Shown here one piece after another: positions 59,446 through 62,591 of a stretch of 64,000 nucleotides of DNA. Each line of letters starts with the position of its first letter. The stretch's first letter is position 1. The notes under the pieces were generated by a model that searched no databases, had not been told where the DNA came from, and saw only the letters and a list, made by a program, of their open reading frames with translations. Position numbers and translations under genes: made by a program. Origin of the DNA: Vulcanimicrobiota bacterium (GTDB lineage Bacteria > Vulcanimicrobiota > Xenobia > Xenobiales > JADMJV01); assembly GCA_019637395.1 (NCBI GenBank), contig JAHBVR010000008.1:124001-188000 (forward strand), given 5' to 3'.

Positions 59446-60336
59446 ATGGAAACAGTAGCGGTCAGCAGCAAGAAGCCTCATCCCTGGGAGGAGCCGGAAG
59501 CTCCTCGCGCCCCCAAAGTCGACTGGTTTTTCAAGATGGGTCTGACCGCCCCCGATGTGGGCACCAATCCCGCGCTGTGGCCGTTTCGTTGGATCTATGG
59601 TGGACGTGCCTTGCGCCGTCTCAAGTCGGTGGCGCGCGGAGCCCGCAAGGTGTTGGACATCCGCTGCGGTTCCGGCTGGCTGCTCTGGGAGCTGGCCAAG
59701 GTCGCTCCCCAGGCTCATCTGCTGGGCCTGGATACGCGCTTACGGCCGCTCATCTGGGGTCAGCTGCAGAGCGAGACCCGTCTGGGCGGCTCGATGGGCA
59801 AGGTCGAACTGGAAGAGATGGATTTTCTGGATTTTCAGGCTGAGGATGAAAGCTACGATCTGATTCTCTGTAATCTGGCTTTGAGTCAGACGGAAGAAGC
59901 CGCTCCCGTGCTGGAAAAGATTCACCGTTTGCTCAAGCCGGGCGGCACCGTCTATTACTATGAAGGCACCGAGCCCACCAATCTCACCGTCGAGCATCTG
60001 GCCAGTTACTACCAACGCCGCCGGCGCTGGCGCGGAATCTATAGCGATCTCTGGAACTTGCGCCGGGAAGTACGTTCGGCTTTTGCCCGCGACAGCCTGC
60101 GCGCCTGGCGCAACCCCAAGGCCAGTCCCGAAGGCGAACTGTTCTCGGCCTTTCAAGGCTTTTTCCAGGTCATGGAGCAGGGCCGCTTTCGCTCGCTTGT
60201 CGATCTCTGGTTGCGCTCTTTGCCCACCCGTTTTCGCTGGTTCTGGTTGCCTATTTTGATTTGGGTCGACAAAATAGCCATCTCCGCCGGTTGGCTCGAG
60301 GGCTGCCGGCGCTATGCCCTGGCCCGCAAACTCTAA
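59446..60336 (+). CDS. Class I SAM-dependent methyltransferase
   Basis: 296 residues. Motif I is VLDIRCGSGWLLWELAKV (Arg in place of the usual Gly), the acidic motif II is LLGLDTRLR, and YDLILCNLALSQT and HRLLKPGGTVYYYEG follow. The C-terminal third is rich in Arg, Trp and Leu and may contain a membrane-associating helix (RFRWFWLPILIWVDKIAIS). The target is unknown. A SSKKPHPWEEPEAPRAP N-terminal tail is likely disordered. Confidence 0.85.
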   Translation: METVAVSSKKPHPWEEPEAPRAPKVDWFFKMGLTAPDVGTNPALWPFRWIYGGRALRRLKSVARGARKVLDIRCGSGWLLWELAKVAPQAHLLGLDTRLRPLIWGQLQSETRLGGSMGKVELEEMDFLDFQAEDESYDLILCNLALSQTEEAAPVLEKIHRLLKPGGTVYYYEGTEPTNLTVEHLASYYQRRRRWRGIYSDLWNLRREVRSAFARDSLRAWRNPKASPEGELFSAFQGFFQVMEQGRFRSLVDLWLRSLPTRFRWFWLPILIWVDKIAISAGWLEGCRRYALARKL

Positions 60337-60369
60337 TTTCGAACGTCTGTTGGCTTGCATGCATGGCTT

Positions 60370-60713
60370 CATGAGGAGTAACCTGTTCAAGCAAGACCTC
60401 GAGCGGACGGAGGAACCGATACCTACCCGGTGCTTTTTAGCACCAAATGCTACGTTCTCTTCGGAGACGTTTCATCAGAGTGAACCAGGAAGCTCTGGCT
60501 GCCCACGACGAGCACCGTATGCGCTCACTCTCTTCGGAGAATGATCGCTTGGATGGGTAACCATCCTCGGACCAACCTAGAAAGTTGATCCGAACCATGG
60601 GCGGAGATTCGAGTAGCATTCTCGTTTCTGTATCCTAGGCCAGAAACAAAGGAAAGGACGCGAAAGCGTCCGTAGGAAGGGCAAGTTCATCGAGGTCTTG
60701 CCCTTTTTCTTTT
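60370..60713 (+). ncRNA. Candidate structured non-coding RNA with intrinsic terminator
   Basis: A gene-free stretch dense in compact hairpins on the rightward strand. They are 60429-60444 (GGTGC/GCACC), 60452-60470 and 60525-60544 (both with TCTC-TTCG-GAGA, UUCG tetraloops), 60551-60566 (GGATGG-GTAA-CCATCC, GNRA loop), 60567-60593 (TCGGA/TCCGA with inner CAAC/GTTG) and 60656-60671 (GGACGC-GAAA-GCGTCC, GNRA loop) enclosed by CCTA/TAGG. The terminator stem at 60677-60705 follows, with a T-tract. I do not recognise it as RNase P RNA, tmRNA, SRP RNA, 6S RNA or a known riboswitch. The 5' end is uncertain. A 36-codon frame starting at 60447 lacks a ribosome-binding site. Confidence 0.6.
60677..60713 (+). 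terminator. Rho-independent terminator of the candidate RNA
   Basis: Stem AAGGGCAAG (60677-60685) pairs with CTTGCCCTT (60697-60705) around an 11-base loop, followed by TTTTTCTTTT to 60713. The tract is on the rightward strand only, so it ends a rightward transcript that holds no clear gene. Confidence 0.85.
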
Positions 60714-61055
60714 CGCGGGTCCGAAACGGCTGGAGCGGAGAGCTATACGGAAGCGTTCGTGGACCCATCGGAGCCGTCGCCAACTCGATGACTCTGGTGA
60801 TTGCTGGGGGGGTGGCCGCTGAGCAGGCACTTGCCATCACTGCCAGCGTCTCTACAACCAGATTTAGGCGGAAGGGATCCGTCTGCGAACCGCCCGGGTC
60901 AAAGCAGACTGTCGGGGGCCTTCGGTGATTGGAAGGAGCTCGCCCGTAGCACAATTCCACGTGCGGAAGTTTGACTCGTCGAGAGCTCTGAGGGCGCCAG
61001 GACGCACTAAGGTCTGCTCTTGCGGGATTCTGAGTAAAGAGCTTGAAACAAGAAC
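60714..61055. other. Gene-free stretch, no recognised feature
   Basis: 342 bases between the terminator and the next small gene. I see no tRNA and no convincing reading frame; frames that cross it have no family character and some read through the terminator. GGGTCC near 60717 is complementary to GGACCC near 60760, but the loop is long. It may hold the promoter of the following operon or be a decayed element. Confidence 0.4.
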
Positions 61056-61484
61056 GTGATGTCTGGAGCTGACGGTGATACTCCCAAGGAAGACGTCTGG
61101 CGCCATCCCCCCATGCCGGGTGCGCCTGTGCCATCCCAGGATCCGTTCGATGGGCTTGAAGTTCTTCCGTTGCCGGGCGAAGCTTTACCCATGGACTACG
61201 AAGGTGGCCCAACCAGCAGTCAGGATGGGCCGCTGGCTCCTTTGCTACCGGACCAGGCCAAGATCTTGCAGCTTACTCAAGAATGGAGCCAGTCTCCGGA
61301 GGGGCTTCTATGCCAATTGATTCAATTGGCTGATCCGGGCGAGTTAGCTTTTGTGCTGTCTCTGATCGGCGATCCGCTGCGCCAGCGGTTTTTTGCGTTG
61401 GCGCGTTCCCTCGACTTGCAACCTCCCGCTTCGCAAGGGCTGGATGAGATATTTTTGCTCTGGCTGAGAATCAAAAAAGCCTGA
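61056..61484 (+). CDS. Small acidic protein of unknown function
   Basis: 142 residues (GTG at 61056, or ATG one codon later). The first 75 residues are acidic and Pro-rich (GAPVPSQDPFDGLEVLPLPG), the rest is helical and Leu-rich (LLCQLIQLADPGELAFVLSLI). No family recognised. The stop overlaps the next start by one base (TGATG), which supports it being translated. Confidence 0.55.
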   Translation: MMSGADGDTPKEDVWRHPPMPGAPVPSQDPFDGLEVLPLPGEALPMDYEGGPTSSQDGPLAPLLPDQAKILQLTQEWSQSPEGLLCQLIQLADPGELAFVLSLIGDPLRQRFFALARSLDLQPPASQGLDEIFLLWLRIKKA

Positions 61485-61696
61485 TGGACGCTTCTCCGCC
61501 GCCCAAGGCGCAAAAAGAGATGTTGCTGGCCAGCCTCGGATTCGGCCTGTTATGGTGGATGCGCTACGATGCCGTGCATGGAGGGCGCTGCGGCGGGCTG
61601 GATATTCCTGTTTGGAGCGCTCGCTCCAAGATCTTTCTGGGTCGGACTGAAAATGGCTGTGTCCCAACGGACAGACCCAACCGTTTGACGTGGTGA
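61484..61696 (+). CDS. Possible small protein, unknown function
   Basis: 70 residues starting on the stop codon of the preceding gene. One hydrophobic stretch (KEMLLASLGFGLLWWMRY), then a basic tail. The following hydrolase gene starts one base after its stop. The tight packing suggests it is real, but there is no homology evidence. Confidence 0.45.
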   Translation: MDASPPPKAQKEMLLASLGFGLLWWMRYDAVHGGRCGGLDIPVWSARSKIFLGRTENGCVPTDRPNRLTW

Positions 61697-61697
61697 G

Positions 61698-62591
61698 ATG
61701 ATGTCGCCAAGGGGGCCGACCGGCCTGGCGGCATTTCTTCTCCTTCTGACCCTCCTCGGTCGGCTGGAATTTGCCTTTGGGCAAACTCCCAGAGATTCAG
61801 AACAAGGGACCGACTCGGTTGAGTCCTTGCCTGAGCAAGCCTGGATTTACAAGCCTTTCAAAGGCCGTTTTTTGGAGCCGGCCAGCCTGGGAGTGCGCGA
61901 CTGCTATTTTCAGGCGTCTGACGGTGTGCGTTTGAACGCCTGGTATCTGTCCGCGCCCGCTGGGCAGCCCACGGTGCTCTACTTTCACGGCAACGGCGGA
62001 AGTCTCTCCAGCATGGACCGCACTCTGGCCGAAATGAAACGGGCTCGCTTCGGGGTTCTGCTGGTGGACTATCGAGGCTACGGCTTGAGCGAGGGACGTC
62101 CCAGCGAACAGGGCCTTTACCGGGACGGATTGGCCGCGTATGACTACTGCCGGGAGCTGGGAGTGCCCGTCGAGCGCCTGCTCATTCATGGGCAATCCCT
62201 GGGCGGTGGAGTGGCCACTTATGTAGCCTCTCGGCGAGCCTGCTCGGGACTGATTCTGGAGTCGACCTTCACTTCTTTCCCGGCCGTCGCGTCCAAGGTC
62301 TGCGGAGGCGGATTTCCGGGGCGTCTGGCTTTTCTGGCCGTTCACACCCAGTTTCCCAATAAGCAGCGGGTGGCCACTCTCACCATTCCCGTTTTCGTCA
62401 TTCACGGCGCCCGGGATGAACTGATTCCCTGCTCGATGGGCAAGGCTCTCCACGCGGCCACTCGCACCGGACGTTTCTGGGTGGTGGACGGCGCCGGGCA
62501 CAACAACCTGCGCTCCGCCGCCAGGTCCGAGTATGCTCGCCGCCTCGGCCAATTCTGGTCGGATTTGAAGTCCGGTAAGTTTTCTCCGTAA
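61698..62591 (+). CDS. Exported alpha/beta hydrolase
   Basis: 297 residues with a signal peptide (GLAAFLLLLTLLGRLEFAFG). The hydrolase fold is clear: VLYFHGNGGSLSSMDR for the oxyanion strand, VDYRGYGLSEGRPSE, the nucleophile elbow LLIHGQSLGGGVATY (GxSxG), the acid in VIHGARDELIP, and the His in VDGAGHNNL. The family (BEM46/ABHD13-like) has diverse esterase or thioesterase roles. Substrate unknown. Confidence 0.85.
   Translation: MMSPRGPTGLAAFLLLLTLLGRLEFAFGQTPRDSEQGTDSVESLPEQAWIYKPFKGRFLEPASLGVRDCYFQASDGVRLNAWYLSAPAGQPTVLYFHGNGGSLSSMDRTLAEMKRARFGVLLVDYRGYGLSEGRPSEQGLYRDGLAAYDYCRELGVPVERLLIHGQSLGGGVATYVASRRACSGLILESTFTSFPAVASKVCGGGFPGRLAFLAVHTQFPNKQRVATLTIPVFVIHGARDELIPCSMGKALHAATRTGRFWVVDGAGHNNLRSAARSEYARRLGQFWSDLKSGKFSP

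Follow-up and report, generated by a model that had tools for sequence, protein, structure and literature searches.

A new structured RNA with paired ends, a free interior and a LexA-like operator in the bacterial class Xenobia

The window described here (the whole 64,000-nucleotide stretch of DNA that was analysed, from a Vulcanimicrobiota bacterium) appears to hold an RNA gene that guards its ends and lets the part between them go: positions 60391-60713 of the plus strand, on which all features below lie unless stated otherwise, are best explained as a standalone structured RNA gene under a LexA-type operator, with paired ends around a free interior and probably inducible by DNA damage, a reading to which we give odds of roughly three in four. 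It belongs to a known kind, the large structured RNAs of bacteria, and forms a new family there whose control element is unusual. A first-pass annotation had proposed an unassigned structured RNA, possibly of a new class, and this has held up well, as the RNA matches nothing in Rfam and its homologues covary. That annotation did not have the promoter with its LexA-like box, nor the pairing of the ends, nor any long-range helix; the larger relatives and the linkage to radA are also new here. As far as comparison between homologues can establish them, the boundaries of the gene, the spacing of operator, promoter and start, the paired ends, the internal helices and the independence from a downstream gene all appear well defined.

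The source genome (7.66 Mb in 36 contigs) carries the RNA as a single copy, within an intergenic stretch (60337-60716) that comes after a class I SAM methyltransferase gene (59446-60336). This neighbour is kept across the genus and ends 54 bases 5' of the inferred RNA start; the earlier statement that no gene precedes the RNA was thus mistaken. In all four congeners a sharply bounded block of 60337-60716 is retained with 80-83% identity, and its flanks diverge on both sides. Downstream lies an alpha/beta hydrolase gene (61698-62591), about 1 kb from the RNA in the window; the intervening stretch (60717-61697) is exclusive to the window genome, and its open reading frame (ORF) at 61056-61484 has no match in Pfam, NCBIfam or PHROG. 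A mobile or repeated element is ruled out by the single copy and by the absence of any match among plasmids or phages, and such matches to motifs of the RNA as occurred in viral contigs proved to be unrelated coding-like sequence.

Ten copies, of 299-978 nt, were found in nine genomes of the Eremiobacterota class Xenobia, where they fall into six lineages; the divergent ones were recovered by way of the promoter block together with the RNA's 5' end. Copies in G000-G004 measure 299-330 nt, G006 has one of 747 nt and another of 978 nt, and those of a different family in the same order measure 960 (G010), 904 (G011) and 947 nt (G012). Named carriers include Candidatus Eremiobacterota MAGs, SZAS-1 and bacterium CPR1. 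Common to all ten are the promoter block, ends paired in a helix of 10-12 bp and an invariant loop containing GGAG, while the interiors of different lineages share nothing above chance. The core motif CGAGCGNACGGAGGAACC has 54 matches in GTDB genomes, of which only those in Xenobia come with the closing helix and the T run, and a search for ACGGAGGAACC in 14 related genomes yielded no further RNA. So far the family is confined to Xenobia, and the form in the window is its smallest.

Within the conserved block, promoter and RNA can be told apart. A box of the shape TCGAACNNNTGTTGGCTTG heads all ten copies, in the window as the LexA-like operator TCGAACGTCTGTTGG (60339-60353), upstream of the -35 element and abutting it. 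Every copy continues with TTG(C/T)-N17/18-TANNNT, in the window a putative -35 element TTGCAT (60355-60360; recognised from the consensus alone and falling short of the mechanical scan's threshold) and a putative -10 element TAACCT (60379-60384; TAGTCT, TATATT or TAGTAT in homologues). The spacer between the two varies freely from copy to copy, as is expected of a promoter, and G(C/U)A(A/G)GACC, taken as the start of the RNA, follows in 10/10 copies, 51-52 bp from where the box begins. Because of this fixed spacing and free spacer the RNA start is placed at about G60391, 7 nt after the -10 element, giving a transcript of ~311-323 nt if it ends in the T run. Each of the ten copies would accordingly have its own promoter at a constant distance from the RNA start. 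The start at 60370 in the first-pass annotation lies some 20 nt too early, 60339-60384 being promoter, and an extension of the RNA 5' to TCGAAC, as in a first MFE fold, was rejected on the same grounds: the -35/-10 spacing is kept in all copies and the sequence between is free.

The RNA is predicted to close upon itself. Its closing helix, P1, pairs GCAAGACCUCGA (60391-60402) with UCGAGGUCUUGC (60690-60701) and is returned by the unconstrained RNAalifold prediction and by every single-sequence MFE, the first 10-12 nt pairing with the last in each copy. Next comes a conserved asymmetric loop, GCGGACGGAG (60403-60412; RYGRAYGGAG across lineages), the GGAGG of which starts at RNA position 19-20 in 10/10 copies, followed by a weakly supported helix P2 (GAAC, 60413-60416, with GUUC, 60685-60688) and by P3 (CCUAC, 60422-60426, with GUAGG, 60672-60676). 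The predicted interior in the window genus includes two long-range helices, one of AAUGCUAC (60446-60453) with GUAGCAUU (60613-60620), found by RNAalifold of five congeners with 92.5% of cells paired, and one of CUGCCCA (60499-60505) with UGGGCGG (60598-60604), in which all cells are paired and two pairs show two-sided change. The hairpins are GGUGCU-UUUU-AGCACC (60429-60444; consensus helix 5); a first UUCG hairpin, TCTC-TTCG-GAGA (60456-60467; with a CUCG loop in G001 and G002); one with a conserved CCAGGAAG in its loop (60475-60498; two-sided change in three pairs); a second UUCG hairpin with an extended stem (60521-60548; two-sided change in four pairs); a GNRA (GUAA) hairpin, GGAUGG-GUAA-CCAUCC (60551-60566), invariant within the genus; GUUUCUG...CAGAAAC with the conserved loop UAUCCUAGGC (60624-60647; consensus helix 14); and GGACGC-GAAA-GCGUCC (60656-60671), variable among congeners. 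The GNRA hairpin and the pair of TCTC-UUCG-GAGA modules (60456-60467 and 60529-60540) had been picked out by the first-pass annotation and are indeed present, but the second module is no fixed unit, since congeners show compensatory changes in it. Read on the minus strand, 60671-60656 is a terminator-like hairpin, GGACGC-TTTC-GCGTCC followed by TTTCCTTTGT, and over the RNA region the minus strand, too, has an unusually stable fold (z = -6.1); this could mark an end of antisense transcription or be a plain mirror of the helices of the RNA.

Homologues carry compensatory base-pair changes in 60391-60713, as those of a structured non-coding RNA gene should. P3 provides the clearest case, reading CCUAC/GUAGG, CACCC/GGGUG, ACCCG/CGGGU or CCRCC/GGUGG according to lineage, with two-sided change in 5/5 pairs and pairing of 100% with its own arms against 60% when arms are swapped between lineages (in a hand alignment whose register we chose). 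In P1, two-sided change between lineages is seen at 4 of the 12 pairs (C-G to U-A, U-A to C-G, G-C to U-A, A-U to U-A); most of the others are invariant and so evidence neither way, and because many pairs are fixed, pairing is still 0.88 after the arms are swapped, against 0.92 before. P2 is paired in 24/24 cells, its changes being of the wobble (G-U) type only. In the alignment of five congeners, 96.4% of cells are paired in the RNAalifold structure, for which P1-P3 were enforced (P1 and P3 also form without constraint), and two-sided change occurs in 14 pairs, where shuffles average 4.6 and none of 500 reaches 14, a comparison of few sequences uncorrected for kinship; slid controls gave one to three such changes. 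The suspicion that hairpins so dense are no product of chance was likewise borne out: the fold of a 381-nt stretch is more stable than those of its dinucleotide shuffles (z = -3.8, 0/100), the RNA trimmed to its inferred ends reaches z = -6.2, and the ten copies range from -3.1 to -7.9 against shuffles. Chance ORFs do overlap the region on both strands, yet a peptide-coding or decayed gene would have to accommodate frame-breaking gaps among congeners, some of a single base, an overlapping minus-strand ORF without a family match and strong base-pair covariation, and has next to no probability.

At its 3' end the RNA carries a terminator-like stem, GGGCAAG/CUUGCCC (60679-60685 / 60697-60703), which is identical in 5/5 congeners and is followed by TTTTTCTTTT, with the T run at 60704-60713. 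The stem and T run (60679-60713) of the putative intrinsic terminator claimed earlier are present; the mechanical terminator scan does not list the stem, because its loop is 11 nt long and the scan allows at most 8. Stem and T run are present in the window genus and in G006, and the T run is weak (GCCATTTCTC) in G010-G012. As the 3' strand of the stem is common to P1, the two structures are mutually exclusive, which is what one would look for in a cis-acting leader, an attenuator or riboswitch whose terminator governs the following gene, ancestrally radA. The neighbourhood of some relatives speaks for such a leader too: in the first G006 copy radA comes directly next, its GTG ~30 nt past the RNA end and right after the T run; in G011 it is again directly next, ~190 nt past the RNA; and in G010 it is second in line behind one intervening gene, by our reading glucosidase-like, of a type also found behind the RNA in G012. 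Against this, radA does not adjoin the RNA in the window genus, where the follower is the alpha/beta hydrolase, directly behind the RNA in G001 and G004, 1 kb away in the window and lost from G003, which still has the RNA; nor is a recognised radA found behind the second G006 copy, so that the ten copies have no downstream gene in common. Moreover, the interiors share no sequence between lineages, unlike those of ligand-binding leaders, and no riboswitch in Rfam matches. We regard a leader as quite improbable. The absence of an adjoining radA in the window genus, together with the loss of the hydrolase in G003, indicates instead that the RNA stands on its own, and the simplest history would be that it arose beside radA and was later moved or duplicated, hence its apparent status as an independent gene.

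What controls this standalone RNA is suggested by its box. The Gram-positive LexA consensus is CGAACRNRYGTTYC (PMC2248561), and the box of the RNA resembles the SOS operators of that group in having a CGAAC-N4-GTT core abutting the -35 element; it differs from them in its GTTGG right half-site and in that it would control an RNA, not a repair protein. The promoters of all ten copies contain TCGAACNNNTGTTGG, one base off CGAACNNNNGTTCG, the right half being GTTGG and not GTTCG. Closer to home, lexA promoters of Eremiobacterota carry TCGAACATATGTTTGGTTG (G044) and TCGAACATATGTTTGCTTG (G062), the latter sharing 16/19 bases with the box of the RNA (3/19 differ), GCTTG right flank included, and TTGACAATCGAACATATGTTCGA stands ahead of a putative ImuA-like gene in G074 and G078. 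Very few other boxes were found in G000, so that an SOS regulon around the box of the RNA would be conjecture there. At sites of TCGAACNNNTGTTCGATTG (20 regions) the ORFs downstream were not meaningful, and genes lay on the opposite side. Elsewhere, LexA-like boxes (TCGAACACAAGTTCGATTG / TCGAACACATATTCGATTG) precede a gene for a short Gly/Met-rich protein at L214 (G013:C29) and L223 (G010:C58), and a near-identical box-like GATCGAACGTCTGTTGGAATG occurs in L219/L261 (G010:C43) and L220/L262 (G012:C133), where the RNA does not follow.

Two LexA proteins are candidates for binding this box, and they complicate matters. In G000, LexA1 (C36) scores over the TIGR00498 cut-off and its paralogue LexA2 (C10:88329-88802, L232) just below it; further Xenobia LexA2 genes are L230, L231, L233 and L234. 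LexA2 has the recognition helix SSSTVHSHL, presumably of the Bacillus subtilis type, and CGAATACGTGTTCG upstream of its own gene. In an alignment that left out LexA1 of G000 and G003, LexA2 was found without the Ala-Gly cleavage site and without the catalytic Ser/Lys in 5/5 genomes checked, and LexA1 of G006 and G010 has Ala-Gly site, Ser and Lys intact and a different recognition helix. LexA2, the paralogue whose recognition helix best fits the box of the RNA, thus shows no capacity for self-cleavage in the alignment, so that RecA-driven release cannot be assumed and a simple SOS reading is weakened. In G006 and G010, GTGAACNNNTGTTCAC boxes lie upstream of LexA1, and the cleavable protein seems to use these. 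Its apparent preference, along with the conservation of the block across families beyond the usual extent of a LexA operator and the constant GTTGG, never GTTCG, would suit an ordinary standalone structured RNA with TCGAACNNNTGTTGG as an activator site or an upstream promoter element unrelated to LexA. We consider that unlikely while granting it some weight, as 16/19 bases agree with the G062 lexA-promoter box, GCTTG flank included, the box stands at a distance from the -35 element that is typical of repressor operators, and radA lies downstream in several relatives. On balance a LexA-family operator at the RNA promoter is well supported by these sequence comparisons, whereas damage-dependent release of the repressor is no more than plausible; we infer that the RNA is transcribed, repressed by a LexA-family protein and induced by DNA damage.

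Might the RNA be a very divergent member of a class already described? Its large size and end-paired, closed architecture recall several, yet the search of Rfam with cmscan at gathering and relaxed thresholds, covering the window and five larger homologues, gave nothing convincing (best E = 0.74 in the window region), and a sub-threshold match to BjrC68 (E = 0.019) lies inside the second G006 copy only. No tRNA or tmRNA was detected in the window, and cmscan found no SRP RNA at the locus. Like the RNA, 6S RNA, tmRNA and RNase P RNA are free-standing with paired 5' and 3' ends, but tmRNA, RNase P (type A) and 6S are encoded by separate genes elsewhere in the same genome and do not match it. The 6S RNA at G000:C26:25225-25409 (L079) has its own promoter. 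For bacterial Y RNA (Ro/Rsr-bound) there was no Rfam match in the window or the five larger homologues. The 11-mer ACGGAGGAACC recurs in a sequence from Bacillota (L132) that, by its look, we take to be a c-di-AMP riboswitch; only this 11-mer is shared with the c-di-AMP (ydaO) riboswitch, the GGGGUGAAU/GUCAGCUAACC parts do not match and neither does Rfam. GOLLD, ROOL and OLE are likewise large, heavily structured and standalone, with a molecular action that is not known (PMC12286853); in GOLLD the 3' region is conserved and the 5' region variable, and this RNA increases in phage lysis and binds ribosomes in pull-downs (PMC12286853). The Xenobia RNA, in contrast, is conserved at its closing helix and thus at both ends, has a LexA-like promoter and a shortest form of only ~311 nt, and showed no covariance-model match to these classes, no phage or tRNA-island context and no match to phage records. 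Taken together, membership of any of these classes (RNase P, tmRNA, 6S, SRP, Y RNA, GOLLD/ROOL/OLE or the c-di-AMP riboswitch) is very improbable. A parallel among non-coding RNAs for control by LexA is DinR of Klebsiella, which is a short mRNA 3' fragment, depends on Hfq and base-pairs with ftsZ mRNA (PMC10907235); the Xenobia RNA, for which such control is proposed, differs in its elaborate closed fold and in having a promoter to itself. A role as CsrA sponge was dropped, as GGA counts (made with no shuffle control) followed no consistent pattern across copies.

A mechanism can be sketched for the standalone RNA. A housekeeping-type promoter would start it at about G60391, and the LexA-type operator abutting the -35 element would hold it silent for as long as the repressor stays bound, release coming most plausibly with DNA damage; transcription would end in the T run near 60713. 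The ends would then pair into a helix of 10-12 bp with the asymmetric loop RYGRAYGGAG, which is strictly conserved, and a branched interior, free in sequence and in length (about 240 to 900 nt), would rise above this helix. So fast-changing an interior argues against a ligand-binding leader and equally against conserved antisense pairing, and the RNA may act in trans, as scaffold or decoy, its GGAG loop docking, at a guess, the 30S subunit or a protein. The GGAG resembles a Shine-Dalgarno sequence and, in the copies inspected, is not followed at a suitable distance by a start codon, which makes a decoy that docks 30S subunits one guess and a dedicated RNA-binding protein another. Carried to its fullest, this would be a new class of RNA machine under DNA-damage control, its conserved end domain holding it shut, its GGAG loop docking a protein or 30S subunit and its ~240-900 nt interior serving as cargo, cage or decoy, which arose by radA and became independent in the window genus and in one G006 copy under a LexA-family repressor perhaps incapable of self-cleavage. 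We offer this only tentatively, as possible but rather doubtful. Against the main reading, a standalone RNA under LexA-family control, count the small size of the family, the wobble-only changes in P2, the GTTGG half-site and the non-cleavable LexA2.

To our knowledge few large structured bacterial RNAs have been described, with functions that are mostly open, and we know of no precedent for LexA control of one, possibly by way of a non-cleavable paralogue. Conserved ends, a wholly changing interior and a LexA-like site together hint at an unknown RNA machine tied to DNA repair. Fixed ends with full turnover of the interior are unusual, and would help to tell the parts that such RNAs require from those that are mere cargo. 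The LexA-type operator and the historical link to radA, a starting point that most RNAs of this kind do not offer, point towards DNA repair, and make the function of the RNA in these bacteria one that may be tested by damage induction.
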